Below are positions 3,397 to 25,021 of a DNA stretch of 32,465 bases, piece after piece. The DNA comes from Terriglobia bacterium (GTDB taxonomy: Bacteria; Pseudomonadota; Alphaproteobacteria; Acetobacterales; Acetobacteraceae), in NCBI GenBank assembly GCA_023511585.1, contig JAIMBF010000029.1, positions 1-32,465 on the forward strand, given 5' to 3'. Positions within the stretch are counted from its first letter, which is position 1. Each line of letters begins with the position of its first letter. Position numbers and translations under genes: made by a program. The notes beneath the pieces were generated by a model, which saw only the letters and a list, made by a program, of their open reading frames with translations, ran no database searches and was not told the origin of the DNA.

Positions 3397-4161
3397 TTAT
3401 GCATCCTTTGTTGGGGAGGTGGTTGCGGCGCCTTCGTTCTTGCGCGCCGGCGCGGCTTCGGCAAGGCGGATGAGCTCGGAGCGGATATCGTCCGGCGTTG
3501 CCACGGCGCCGGTCCAGTGAATGCGGCAAAACTGCTCGCCGGCCATCAGATCGCACCCATCCACATCAACGCCGACCATCTGCCAGGCTCCGGGCGAGGC
3601 ACCCGCTGCCTCGGCAATGCGGGCAAGGGCATCGGCATGGCCGTCATTCATATGCGCCAAAATCTCCGCCTCTGCGGCCGCCAGGCGCGCCGCAAGCTCC
3701 GGTTCCGGCATCAGGTCTTTGGCGCGAAGCCGACGCGCTTGCCCAAACCCGCCGACCCAAAGGGCCTCCGTGGGGTGAAGGCGCCAGAGCGAGAAATCGG
3801 CGAAATCCGCATAGAGCGCGGCGTAGGGGTGGATCGCCAAAAATCGTGCTTTAAGCCCATCATCCGCAACCATTTCGGCCTCTGCGGCAACGCTGATCCG
3901 CGGCGCCGTCTGCGGATTGATCTCCGCCGGCTGCCCCACCACCAGCAAGGCGCAGTTCGGATTCTCCAGCAAATGGCGCGTATGCTCCGAAAGCCGCGAG
4001 AGCAGCAGCAACAACGAAAGATCCCCGCTTGCCGCGTAGGTAACCAGGGCAGCGTGCGGCTTGCCGTCCTTCACCGTCGCAAGGCTTGCCGCGCGCGCAC
4101 CGCGCAAAAGACGGCGCGCCTTCCAGTGAACAGGGATGTCTTTTGCCTGCGTCGTTGCCAT
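3397..4161 (-). CDS. HugZ-like pyridoxamine-5'-phosphate-oxidase-fold protein with DUF2470
   Basis: The 254-residue protein has an N-terminal split-barrel flavin/heme-binding-type domain (about residues 10-150, with [17 protein letters not shown] and [14 protein letters not shown]) and a C-terminal DUF2470 domain marked by [15 protein letters not shown] and a Trp-rich end. Relatives include HugZ/HutZ heme-utilisation proteins, which bind heme and in some cases degrade it, and many general-stress proteins of unknown cofactor. Assignment to heme breakdown is therefore tentative. It is the first gene of a two-gene unit with the AhpD-like protein and is transcribed away from chvI across an 82-base gap, which must hold both promoters. 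Confidence 0.88.
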
Positions 4162-11261: not shown

Positions 11262-12474
11262 GGCTCGCATGCCTGATACTGGCCAAAGCCTCGGCAAGAT
11301 CGGAGATAAGGTCTTCCGTATCCTCAAGGCCGACGGAAAGGCGCACGACGCCATCGCCGATCCCGAGGCGCGCACGCTCTTCGCTGCCGATTTTCATATG
11401 GGTTGTGGTCGCCGGATGCGTAATGAGGGATTTTGCATCGCCGAGATTGTTGGAAATCGCGATCAAGCGAAGATTGTTCATGAATTGAAATGCGGCCTCT
11501 TTGCCGCCGTGCAGCTCGAAACTCACCAAGGTTCCCCCGCCGCTCATCTGCGCACGCGCCAGCGCGGATTGCGGATGATCGGCGCGGAAAGGATACCAAA
11601 CCCGCGCAACCTCGGCACGCTCGGCGAGGAAATCGGCAATGCGCGCAGCGGATTGCTGCGCCGCGGCCAAGCGCTGCGGCAAGGTTTCCACCCCTTTGAG
11701 TAATAGCCACGCGTTAAAGGGCGAAAGGGTGGGACCCGTGTTGCGCAAGTAGGGATGCAGGGTTTCGTTGATCCATGCCTGGCTGCCGAGCACCGCTCCG
11801 CCCAGCACGCGGCCTTGCCCGTCGATATGTTTGGTGCAGGAATAAACCACCACATCGGCGCCCAGCGCCAACGGGCGCTGCAACAATGGGGTGGCAAAGA
11901 CGTTGTCCACCACCAAAATTGCGCCCGCTGCATGCGCCCACTTGGCCACTGCGTTGATATCGATAATCTCAAGCATCGGGTTGGAGGGGCTTTCCAGCAG
12001 CACCAAGGCCGCCGGTTGCGCCAGCGCTGCCTGCCATTGCTCAAGCTTTGTGCCGTCGACAAATTCGGTGGCGATCCCGAAGCGCGGCAGCAGCGTGGAA
12101 ACAATCCAGTGGCAGGCGCCGAACAAAGCCCGGGAGGCAACGACCCGATCGCCCGCTTTCAAATGCGCAAACAGCGCCGCGTGCACCGCGGCCATGCCCG
12201 AGGCGGTCACCCGGCACGCCTCGGCGCCTTCGAGCAAAGCGAGCCGCTTTTCCAGCATGGTGACGGTCGGGTTTCCGAAACGGGAATATTGGTAGCGCTC
12301 CAGCGTGCCGGCGAATGTCGCCGCAGCTTCCTCGGCGCTGCCGTAAACAAAGCCGGAGGTCAGGAATAAGGCCTCGGACGTCTCCCCATACGGAGAGCGC
12401 TCAATGCCGCCATGAACGAGGAGGGTTGCGGGGCGATAGCGGGAAGGCGGGTTCTGCATCGGTCTTTGTCTCAT
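11245..12474 (-). CDS. metZ: O-succinylhomoserine sulfhydrylase
   Basis: This PLP-dependent Cys/Met-metabolism enzyme makes homocysteine from O-succinylhomoserine and sulfide in methionine synthesis. Visible features are RPATLLVHGGIERSPYGETSEALFLTSGFVYGS near the start (shown in part), QYSRFGNPT, ASGMAAVHAAL, VDNVFATP and the PLP-lysine motif SCTKHIDGQGR, all matching MetZ rather than MetB. From ATG 12474 it has 409 residues; ATG 12459 is an alternative giving 404. Upstream extension to 12609 is ruled out because it would run through the riboswitch. ATG 12474 overlaps the stop of a leader ORF as ATGA. The message carries apaG downstream. Confidence 0.93.
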   Translation of the reverse strand: MRQRPMQNPPSRYRPATLLVHGGIERSPYGETSEALFLTSGFVYGSAEEAAATFAGTLERYQYSRFGNPTVTMLEKRLALLEGAEACRVTASGMAAVHAALFAHLKAGDRVVASRALFGACHWIVSTLLPRFGIATEFVDGTKLEQWQAALAQPAALVLLESPSNPMLEIIDINAVAKWAHAAGAILVVDNVFATPLLQRPLALGADVVVYSCTKHIDGQGRVLGGAVLGSQAWINETLHPYLRNTGPTLSPFNAWLLLKGVETLPQRLAAAQQSAARIADFLAERAEVARVWYPFRADHPQSALARAQMSGGGTLVSFELHGGKEAAFQFMNNLRLIAISNNLGDAKSLITHPATTTHMKIGSEERARLGIGDGVVRLSVGLEDTEDLISDLAEALASIRHASHDKRL

Positions 12475-12533
12475 CCTTTGCGGCCGACCGTCGATGCCCG
12501 GCAGCGTTTCTTCGTGCTCCGAAGAAAGGCCAT
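12471..12533 (-). CDS. possible 20-codon leader ORF between riboswitch and metZ
   Basis: An ATG at 12533 lies seven bases after AAAGAGG (12541-12547), the Shine-Dalgarno embedded in the riboswitch 3' end. The frame runs 20 codons, product basic and rich in Arg, Lys and Ser with one Cys, and stops at TGA that overlaps the in-frame metZ ATG at 12474 as ATGA. Within it TTTCTTCG and CGAAGAAA (12507-12527) form a perfect eight-pair hairpin with a five-base loop. It is out of frame with metZ. Either ribosomes translate it and re-initiate at metZ, or the ATG is incidental. Confidence 0.4.
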   Translation of the reverse strand: MAFLRSTKKRCRASTVGRKG

Positions 12534-12540
12534 CCCGCAG

Positions 12541-12596
12541 CCTCTTTAGCGCGCTTCTTTTACCTCGCCGCAAGCCGGCCAGACAAATCACGAGGG
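12541..12596 (-). promoter_or_regulatory. SAM-II riboswitch upstream of metZ
   Basis: Read on the minus strand, P1 is CCTCG (12595-12591) pairing with CGAGG (12567-12563). The loop holds the conserved TGATTTG and CTTGC elements, and the 3' tail holds GTAAAAGAAG and GCTAAAGAGG (12550-12541). This arrangement is the SAM-II (metA/metZ) class, known mostly from alphaproteobacteria, in which S-adenosylmethionine stabilises an H-type pseudoknot that hides the Shine-Dalgarno. Here AAAGAGG is that hidden site. I have not resolved every pseudoknot pair by eye. Confidence 0.88.
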
Positions 12597-12678
12597 GGGA
12601 GACATCCACCAGCGCCGTATTAGGCGCGAATGGATTGCATCGTCAACCCGGTCTCTCTATAAGAGAAGGAAAGTGCAT

Positions 12679-12753
12679 GCGGGTGTAGTTCAGTGGAAGA
12701 ACGACAGCTTCCCAAGCTGTATGTCGAGGGTTCGATTCCCTTCACCCGCTCCA
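12679..12753 (+). tRNA. tRNA-Gly(CCC)
   Basis: Acceptor stem GCGGGTG pairs with CACCCGC, discriminator T, and encoded CCA at 12751-12753. The anticodon stem ACAGC/GCTGT encloses loop TTCCCAA with anticodon CCC at 12711-12713; the T arm reads GAGGGTTCGATTCCCTT. It decodes GGG and closely resembles bacterial glyU-type tRNAs. It is divergent from metZ. Confidence 0.97.
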
Positions 12754-12793
12754 AACGGCACGCGATGGGAGCCGGATGCCCAAGTGCGTCTGC

Positions 12794-23623: not shown

Positions 23624-25021
23624 ATGGGTATCACCGCCGAACTTGCAACTTTCTCGGCAAAAGTGAGTTTCCAAAGCCTTCCCGTTCCCGTGCTGCACCG
23701 CGCGCCGCAGCTTTTGCTCGATTTGGTCGGCAATATCGTGCGTGCGCGCCATGATGCCGAAAGCACCCCGGCATTGCTGGCGGCGGTGCGGGCGCTCGGC
23801 CTGAATGCCGGCACGTGCGGCGTGTTTGGAGACGCGGCGCGCTACACCCCCGCCGGGGCGGCTCTTCTCAACGGGGCGCTTGCGCATTCGTTGGATTTCG
23901 ACGACACGCACGCCGCGGCTTCCCTCCATCCCGGCGCGCCGGTGATTCCCGCCGCCTTGGCGGCTGCCGAAAGCACCGGGGCAAGCGGGGCGGATCTGCT
24001 TGCGGGCATCGTGGCCGGCTACGAGGTGGTCTGCCGCGTCGCGCTCGCTCTTCCTGCCAAAGCCCATTATGATCGCGGCTTTCATCCGACTGCCACATGC
24101 GGTGCTTTCGGCGCTGCCGCGGCCGCGGGGCGGGTGCTGCAACTTTCCCCGGAAGGCATGCAATCGGCCTTCGGCATTGCGCTCAGCCAAAGCGCCGGAA
24201 GTCTGCAATTCCTCGCCAACGGCGCCTGGACGAAGCGCTTCCAGGTGGGCTGGGCGGCCATGGCCGGGCTCTCCGCGGCTATGCTGGCGCATGCGGGGTT
24301 CAAAGGAGCGGCCGAGGCGCTGGAAGGGCGGCATGGCTTTTTGCGTGCCTACGCCCCGGCACCGGAACCCGATTTGGCCGTTGCGGACTTGGGCAATCGC
24401 TTCGAACTCATGGCGACCGCGGTCAAGCCCTATCCTTCCTGCCGTTACGGACATGCGGGGATTGATGCCGCTCTTGCTCTGCGTGCCAAGCACGGCTTGA
24501 TGCCGGAGGAGATCGAACAGGTAACGCTTGGGCTTCCGCAGGCCGGTCTGTTGCTCATCGGCGAGCCGCTTGAGCAGAAAATTGCCCCGGAAAATGTGGT
24601 GGACGGCCAGTTCAGCGGGCCGTTCGTCATCGCCGCGGCATTGGTAACCGGGGAGATGAACTGGAACAGTTACCGGCTCCTGCACGACCCGACGGTGCGT
24701 TCGCTGATGGCCAAAACGCGATGCGTGCATGATCCTGAGGTAGAGGCCCTCTTCCCCACCCATATGGCGGGAAAACTCACCGTGCGTGCGCGCGGCAGGG
24801 AATTTTCCGAGCTCGTGCGGGTTGCGAAAGGAGAGCCGGAGAATTTCCTGACCGAAGAAGAGCTGCGCGGCAAGTTCCAGAGCCTGACGGAGGCCGTTCT
24901 CGGGCCCGAACGCACGGCGCGACTGGCCGATGCCGTGCTCGCGGTGCACAGCCTGCCGCGTGTCAGCTTATTGTTCGGCTTGGCTTCTCCGCTCGCTCCG
25001 GCGCAACTCGCCGGCGAGTAA
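23624..25021 (+). CDS. MmgE/PrpD-family protein
   Basis: The protein is 465 residues from ATG 23624, chosen because GGGGGAG lies eight bases upstream; an ATG at 23597 would add nine residues. It shows the MmgE/PrpD all-helical then alpha/beta fold marks AALLNGALAHSLDFDDTHAAASLHPGAPVIPA (shown in part), GFHPTATCGAFGAAAAA, KRFQVGWAAMAGL and VKPYPSCRYGHAGIDAA. The family includes 2-methylcitrate dehydratase PrpD, cis-aconitate decarboxylase and several carboxylic-acid epimerases. No prpB or prpC is beside it, so methylcitrate use is not supported; it looks like one of the many stand-alone homologues. It is divergent from mltB. Confidence 0.9.
   Translation: MGITAELATFSAKVSFQSLPVPVLHRAPQLLLDLVGNIVRARHDAESTPALLAAVRALGLNAGTCGVFGDAARYTPAGAALLNGALAHSLDFDDTHAAASLHPGAPVIPAALAAAESTGASGADLLAGIVAGYEVVCRVALALPAKAHYDRGFHPTATCGAFGAAAAAGRVLQLSPEGMQSAFGIALSQSAGSLQFLANGAWTKRFQVGWAAMAGLSAAMLAHAGFKGAAEALEGRHGFLRAYAPAPEPDLAVADLGNRFELMATAVKPYPSCRYGHAGIDAALALRAKHGLMPEEIEQVTLGLPQAGLLLIGEPLEQKIAPENVVDGQFSGPFVIAAALVTGEMNWNSYRLLHDPTVRSLMAKTRCVHDPEVEALFPTHMAGKLTVRARGREFSELVRVAKGEPENFLTEEELRGKFQSLTEAVLGPERTARLADAVLAVHSLPRVSLLFGLASPLAPAQLAGE

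Follow-up and report, generated by a model that had tools for sequence, protein, structure and literature searches.

The window analyzed here is a stretch of 32,465 nucleotides (contig JAIMBF010000029.1, assembly GCA_023511585.1) from a bacterium placed in the Acetobacteraceae, in which the methionine-synthesis gene metZ lies on the minus strand behind a predicted SAM-II riboswitch, a regulatory RNA that responds to S-adenosylmethionine (SAM). The presence of this riboswitch before metZ was confirmed, and we found that the leader between aptamer and gene has elements shared across the family. We give about an even chance to the proposal that these elements make up a family-specific translational platform acting on the ribosome-binding region of metZ itself. 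A preliminary description of the window had assigned control instead to a 20-codon leader open reading frame (ORF), which to judge from the sequence comparisons is more likely incidental than needed.

The SAM-II aptamer and metZ

The covariance model for SAM-II (SAM_alpha, RF00521) matches positions 12604-12525 of the minus strand over its full length (model 1-79), with 64.2 bits against a gathering score of 36 and an E value of 2e-12 (cmscan); this is the sole match found across the genome. The gene downstream scores 574.5 bits against TIGR01325 (cut-off 510). Both results agree with the preliminary description, which had recognized a SAM-II riboswitch before metZ from landmarks that all lie on the minus strand as listed: the P1 arms CCTCG (12595-12591) and CGAGG (12567-12563), TGATTTG (12590-12584), CTTGC and GCTAAA (12550-12545). 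The features of this part of the window, including the probable Shine-Dalgarno (SD) sequence of metZ, are:

12525 to 12604, minus strand: SAM-II (SAM_alpha, RF00521) aptamer, full length by cmscan
12590 to 12595, minus strand: 5' arm of P1 by model alignment, partner 12568-12563
12563 to 12568, minus strand: 3' arm of P1 by model alignment
12574 to 12583, minus strand: aptamer loop UCUGGCCGGC, the 5' strand of P2 and also the best partner of a downstream motif
12539 to 12547, minus strand: AAAGAGGCU, conserved aptamer tail by sequence and model, with SD-like GAGG (12544-12541) and the 3' strand of P2
11245 to 12459, minus strand: metZ, O-succinylhomoserine sulfhydrylase (TIGR01325), alternative start at 12474
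12474 to 12479, minus strand: AAAGGA, probable metZ SD, 14 nucleotides (nt) before AUG 12459 (-5.4 kcal/mol, rank 42 of 79)

RF00521 finds a match in 329 of the 397 Acetobacteraceae genomes examined, above the cut-off in 266 and below it in 63. Leyn 2014 (PMC4239095) recorded SAM_alpha from Rhizobiales and Rhodobacterales only. From these genomes and others we assembled a first set of 124 distinct leaders (116 from the family, 8 from other families) and an enlarged set of 141 family leaders, 105 of which are non-redundant. Nine of 223 loci lacked the aptamer pattern and were left out. A MetZ-like N-terminus follows the aptamer in all 124 leaders of the first set. The genus of the window is represented by one genome.

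Two in-frame ATG codons, 12474 and 12459, could start metZ. Starting from 12459 places an RPAT block at residue 8, the mode of the family (47 of 141 proteins, by a simple pattern that left 27 of 141 not placed), whereas 12474 would place it at residue 13, as in 2 of 141; in the NF005696 alignment, residue 6 of the 12459 protein corresponds to model position 7. Block position and alignment thus make ATG 12459 the likelier start. The AAAGGA upstream is of ordinary SD strength, but its 14-nt spacing is unusually long.

The aptamer itself is ordinary. SAM-II has been classed as acting by direct occlusion in a 2024 review (PMC10907184), and the direct-occlusion SAM-II of Sargasso Sea metX shares with the window an aptamer with P1, P2, the binding-site consensus and an SD-like GAGG in a P2 strand. 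There, however, translation of the gene itself begins from the SD in P2, whereas the two candidate metZ AUGs lie 66 or 81 nt past GAGG, away from the normal SD spacing of that platform, behind an SD-like stretch and a hairpin of their own.

Variant forms of the aptamer were also seen. Loci L128 (42-150), L129, L130, L131 and L081 have a SAM-II aptamer with an additional hairpin between the P1 3' arm and GCTAAA; RF00521 matches L128-L131 over model positions 10-43 only and below the gathering score. In one genome a single contig (G231:C262) carries a pair of equally scoring SAM-II/metZ units that face opposite ways, at 3641-3720 and 24151-24230.

Shared leader elements and a candidate switch

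Family leaders have a common order of elements: the P2 strand GAGGCC, a hairpin that we term P3, a motif near UCCACGGYCGG, a segment complementary to the metZ SD (anti-SD), a loop, the metZ SD and the AUG. The corresponding features in the window are:

12507 to 12527, minus strand: P3, 8 base pairs and a 5-nt loop, the window form of a family-wide covarying hairpin
12484 to 12495, minus strand: motif AUCGACGGUCGG (family near UCCACGGYCGG), by comparison
12492 to 12497, minus strand: GCAUCG, 5' arm of a predicted hairpin over the metZ start, by folding
12456 to 12461, minus strand: CGAUGC, 3' arm of the same hairpin, including AUG 12459, by folding

Covariation was assessed by a segment-swap test, which compares the duplex energies of true partners with those of partners exchanged between species (5000 swaps). 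Since leaders with GGCCC and GGGCC pair one base apart in register, this test replaced alignment-wide pair counting on alignment A1 (54 of 56 references, without L006 and L103). Motif-based tests used 79 leaders, after 34 of 113 non-redundant leaders with a motif score under 12 had been left out; L006, which comes from another family, is included in the tests with n=79 and dropped in the segment-swap test with n=78.

The arms of P3, TTTCTTCG (12527-12520) and CGAAGAAA (12514-12507) in the window, pair perfectly, and the perfect hairpin that had been noted inside the leader frame is this family-wide element. Its arms covary strongly (z -12.5, n=78, 0 of 5000 swaps), also in sets thinned to 50 leaders (z -8.8) and 23 leaders (z -4.6). 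Pairing of the anti-SD with the SD region gives z -5.6 (n=78, 0 of 5000 swaps) and z -3.5 in 50 more distant leaders, while control pairings (the anti-SD with a coding or middle segment, a P3 arm with the SD) range from z -0.9 to +0.2. The motif reaches a score of at least 13 in 61 of 113 non-redundant leaders compared to 0.9% of shuffles, with a consensus derived from the same leaders as were scored.

The matched changes can be followed by eye as lineage-specific anti-SD:SD pairs: GGCCC:GGGCC, GGGCC:GGCCC, GGUCC:GGACC, CCAGAAU:AUUUUGG, CCCGCCAU:AUGGAGGG and CCUCCA:UGGAGG. The SD-like stretch before metZ is kept in all five loci that lack GAGG (L019, L026, L122, L124 and L125), and in L026 and L124 GGACGCC or GGACACC pairs with GGUGUCC by eye. 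An SD was recognized in 70 of the 79 leaders examined, and in 52 of these the best anti-SD duplex takes up three or more of the four SD bases. The segment used for the local fold is as a whole more stable than shuffles of equal composition (p 5e-10). As a separate observation, the aptamer tail of the five loci without GAGG reads GCTAAACGGCC.

The window has its own version of this arrangement. It retains P3 and the motif without the inner anti-SD:SD helix, and its anti-SD duplex is one of the weaker in the set (-6.9 kcal/mol, 11th weakest of 79). In the local fold AUG 12459 is closed by GCAUCG:CGAUGC (unpaired probability 0.00). L059 and L062 close their AUGs similarly (0.01), and in L063 and L047 GCAUCC or GGCGUCC pairs with GGAUGC or GGAUGCC over the SD. 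A predicted helix of the anti-SD with the metZ SD or AUG is supported by matched changes in the family, less clearly in thinner sets of leaders, and in the window it would hold the AUG only.

How SAM might act on this helix is suggested by the aptamer loop. In 61 of 79 leaders no other part of the leader is predicted to pair with it as well as the motif does, compared to 29% when the loops are shuffled. For the window, predicted pairing with the motif gives -13.9 kcal/mol and the best site elsewhere -13.0, whereas P2 itself gives -6.4. When both P2 strands were blocked in silico as a stand-in for SAM binding, metZ-hairpin pairs increased by a mean of 2.99, compared to 1.13 for random blocks of equal size (p 7e-6, n=79); the increase exceeded that of random blocks in 53 of 79 leaders, and hairpin pairs rose in 50 of 79. 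These results suit a switch that would give the loop strand to P2 when SAM is present and to the motif when it is absent.

In the proposed platform, control would be exerted about 60-90 nt past the aptamer tail, on the metZ ribosome-binding region, through a hairpin between the metZ SD, the AUG or both and sequence within or next to the motif. With SAM bound, the aptamer loop and GAGGCY would form P2, the motif would be left free, the metZ hairpin (in the window GCAUCG:CGAUGC over AUG 12459) would close and translation would drop; Rho termination could follow. At low SAM the same loop strand would pair with the motif and open the metZ hairpin. Comparison shows P3, the motif and the matched anti-SD/SD changes, of which the covarying parts are the firmer result; the exchange of the loop between P2 and motif is inferred, as are the direction of control and any Rho termination that might follow.

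Several observations weigh against the proposed platform. Covariation of the anti-SD with the SD region declines to z -1.9 among 23 very different leaders (163 of 5000 swaps), and SD pairing in the local fold is not above that of shuffles (0.35 vs 0.37, p 0.22). Blocking P2 reduced hairpin pairs in 11 of 79 leaders, and the unpaired probability of the SD did not fall when P2 was blocked (0.26 to 0.33). In the window the SD itself is unpaired with only the AUG held in the hairpin, and a full-length fold closes AUG 12459 only partly (unpaired 0.37, or 0.22 with the P2 strands blocked). Loop-motif covariation is weak (z -2.9, with -3.7 for the known P2), since neither loop nor motif varies much.

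Other switching pairs were examined by segment swapping with null results: loop with SD region z +2.3, P2 strand with SD region -1.1 and loop with anti-SD -0.5. A switching helix between the P2 3' strand and either the motif or the anti-SD was likewise unsupported (z +0.6 and +2.7).

Within the open-licence PubMed Central literature, our searches, one of them directed at SAM-II in Acetobacteraceae, found no description of the hairpin over the ribosome-binding site or of the motif seen here; the hairpin kept in the family points to a control arrangement that they did not turn up for SAM-II. SAM-II has been studied extensively in vitro, and the sole functional study in cells that we found concerns Sinorhizobium meliloti (Scheuer 2022; PMC9373788), whose authors describe the spread of their mechanism among organisms as unknown. 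The metZ leader arrangement could be tested in cultivable Acetobacteraceae such as Gluconobacter oxydans and, if the proposal holds, would provide a further SAM-II platform. In it, a single strand of the aptamer would alternate between the pseudoknot formed with the ligand and a distant motif, pairing with which makes the ribosome site of the gene accessible.

The 20-codon frame and other explanations

The frame that the preliminary description placed under SAM control is:

12471 to 12533, minus strand: 20-codon leader ORF MAFLRSTKKRCRASTVGRKG, judged more likely incidental than functional, no Pfam match

Its geometry is as had been described. AAAGAGG (12547-12541) lies seven bases before an ATG (12533-12531), and the frame ends in a TGA (12473-12471) that overlaps, as ATGA, the ATG at 12474 in the metZ frame. 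According to the mechanism first proposed, SAM would govern initiation at AUG 12533, and ribosomes that read the 20 codons would open the hairpin and reinitiate at AUG 12474 through ATGA or at AUG 12459. We consider this unlikely, though it has points in its favor: a fair SD (-5.8 kcal/mol) 7 nt before AUG 12533, the unusual 14-nt spacing of the metZ SD, and the position of the stop, since a ribosome halted at 12471 would presumably cover CGAUGC.

A similar architecture is known from another riboswitch class. A B12 riboswitch of Mycobacterium tuberculosis precedes a short ORF, uPPE2, that overlaps ppe2 by AUGA and permits termination-reinitiation (Kipkorir 2024; PMC11260477); like the window, it combines a riboswitch SD with a short out-of-frame ORF and an AUGA overlap with the main gene. 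The uPPE2 ORF, however, is partially conserved and experimentally needed, whereas the frame in the window does not persist in near relatives. The mechanism first proposed is therefore already known, though from the B12 class.

Several elements of the frame are generic. AAAGAGG is mostly aptamer consensus (the model reads CGCUAAAgAGGCC) and GAGG is found in 77 of 79 motif-bearing leaders, so its presence adds no independent evidence for a leader SD. The metZ gene begins with ATGA in 68 of 124 leaders, and if 12459 is the real start the overlap at 12474 misses it. Upstream, the metZ frame stays open across the entire aptamer as far as GTG 12609 (12609-11245 on the minus strand, 454 codons), which makes open frames cheap in this region. 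Translation of metZ from GTG 12609 through the aptamer was itself rejected as unlikely because similar open frames recur in the family, several relatives having the metZ frame open through the aptamer as well (TTG -28/GTG -46). A plausible SD-ATG-ATGA arrangement behind a riboswitch readily arises in G+C-rich leaders, which calls for caution.

Frames that start with ATG occur at chance level. An ATG 4-11 nt past the riboswitch SD was found in 5 of 124 leaders, compared to 8.4 expected when the stretch between aptamer and metZ is shuffled, and a stop within -20 to +10 of the metZ start accompanied it in 2 of 124 (the window and L117; 2.0 expected by shuffling). Among the 141 family leaders such an ATG is present in 9, and the frame ends near metZ in 4 (L001, L117, L191 and L223), compared to 3.1 in dinucleotide-preserving shuffles; the corresponding count for the non-redundant leaders is 3 of 105 vs 2.1. 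Nor is the frame overlapping metZ open more often than shuffling would give (65 of 105 vs 67.4).

Conservation among close relatives was not found either. Among 89 near-relative pairs, in which a few leaders such as L094 and L223 recur many times, a coupled frame is present in one member only in 23 and in both in 3. L223 has a window-like frame of 22 codons that ends in ATGA, but in its kin the frame either runs for 61 codons, beyond the metZ start (L209), or stops after two (L181). For the window itself the comparison is with other genera.

A wider definition of the frame gives a different result, and one that weighs against the platform proposed above. The first test, limited to ATG at 4-11 nt, missed frames of the kind seen in L059 and L060, and the criterion was then widened to ATG, GTG or TTG at 3-14 nt. 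Coupled frames so defined are present in 21 of the 105 non-redundant leaders, compared to 9.7 (standard deviation 2.8) in shuffles. No excess appears farther on (11, 8 and 8 at 15-26, 27-38 and 39-50 nt vs 10.3, 10.6 and 11.2 expected), and ATG alone at 3-14 nt gives 6 coupled frames vs 3.1 (standard deviation 1.8). L059, the best-scoring relative, has a 19-codon frame that begins with an ATG at 12 nt and whose TGA overlaps the metZ start; in L060 a 23-codon frame runs from a GTG at 12 nt to an ATGA, and the sister of L060, L061, lacks such a frame (all three are among the nearest MetZ relatives, at 79-80% identity). The platform proposed above leaves this twofold excess of coupled frames at SD spacing unaccounted for.

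As a conserved element, then, the leader ORF is not borne out with ATG and gives mixed results with other start codons, and support for an ORF coupled to metZ is weak and uneven overall. The two mechanisms might also be combined in the lineage of the window and perhaps more than once among the Acetobacteraceae, a reading that we regard as quite improbable: at low SAM, ribosomes recruited by GAGG would read the short frame through P3, stop near the metZ start (12471), open GCAUCG:CGAUGC and pass to AUG 12474 or 12459. Such a SAM-II platform would unite pseudoknot occlusion, a fast-evolving leader ORF and a hairpin over the ribosome-binding site.

In S. meliloti metA, the riboswitch GAGG is needed although translation starts 74 nt downstream, and changing the AUG directly behind it (AUG1) does not abolish expression (Scheuer 2022; PMC9373788), so that the equivalent of AUG 12533 is unused there. 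This precedent suggests that the riboswitch GAGG could recruit the 30S subunit for a start at the metZ AUG 66-81 nt downstream, with SAM hiding GAGG in P2. In this family the metZ AUG lies a median of 78 nt past GAGG (interquartile range 72-87, range 59-162, n=79), close enough to the 74 nt of metA to make this a serious rival, and 77 of 79 leaders have the GAGG. The metA leader further resembles the window in that an AUG stands right behind GAGG, a hairpin is present and the true start lies some 75 nt farther on. In metA, however, AUG2 is in frame with AUG1, is separated from it by a validated terminator and does not work alone, whereas in the window the frame differs, no terminator was found and a hairpin over the ribosome-binding site is supported in the family. 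Unlike metA AUG2, metZ has its own SD in relatives (median -5.6 kcal/mol, n=79); GAGG belongs to the aptamer consensus in any case, and some lineages without GAGG retain the arrangement. We consider recruitment from this distance unlikely. The main text of an S. meliloti Ribo-seq paper does not include metZ.

Least probable of the three, in our estimation, is attenuation, in which SAM would trigger termination of leader transcription, either intrinsically or via Rho. Putative terminators have been noted behind many SAM-II aptamers (Corbino 2005; PMC1273637), and in G. oxydans 621H the SAM-II 5' untranslated region (UTR) before metZ has about 20-fold the RNA-seq coverage of the gene (PMC5756330). 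This bacterium resembles the window in family, gene and aptamer, with leader RNA far above that of the gene; the authors of that study infer transcription termination, citing a computed terminator/antiterminator, and the excerpt mentions no hairpin over the ribosome-binding site and no motif. The 20-fold UTR coverage fits attenuation but would equally fit Rho acting after translational repression, as the platform proposed above allows. T-runs are present in all 8 leaders outside the family, but T6 occurs in only 3 of 141 family leaders (32 of 141 by a looser T-run criterion), and a search of the window leader for an intrinsic terminator, a G+C-rich hairpin followed by a U-run, found no such site in 12400-12760.

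Neighboring genes

Downstream of the riboswitch and metZ, apaG (NF003967, 168.7 bits) starts at ATG 11261 on the minus strand, inside the end of metZ with a 17-nt overlap (11261-11245), and translation of the two genes may be coupled. On the other side, a tRNA-Gly(CCC) gene (12679-12753, plus strand) lies just upstream of the riboswitch on the opposite strand; a tRNA on the opposite strand near the aptamer is also found in L059 and L060. The places listed in a plasmid search span only about query positions 1245-1326, which correspond to the tRNA. MetZ matches with one internal TGA were seen in several genomes (for example G112, G173, G179 and G381), perhaps reflecting alignment past the end of the gene.

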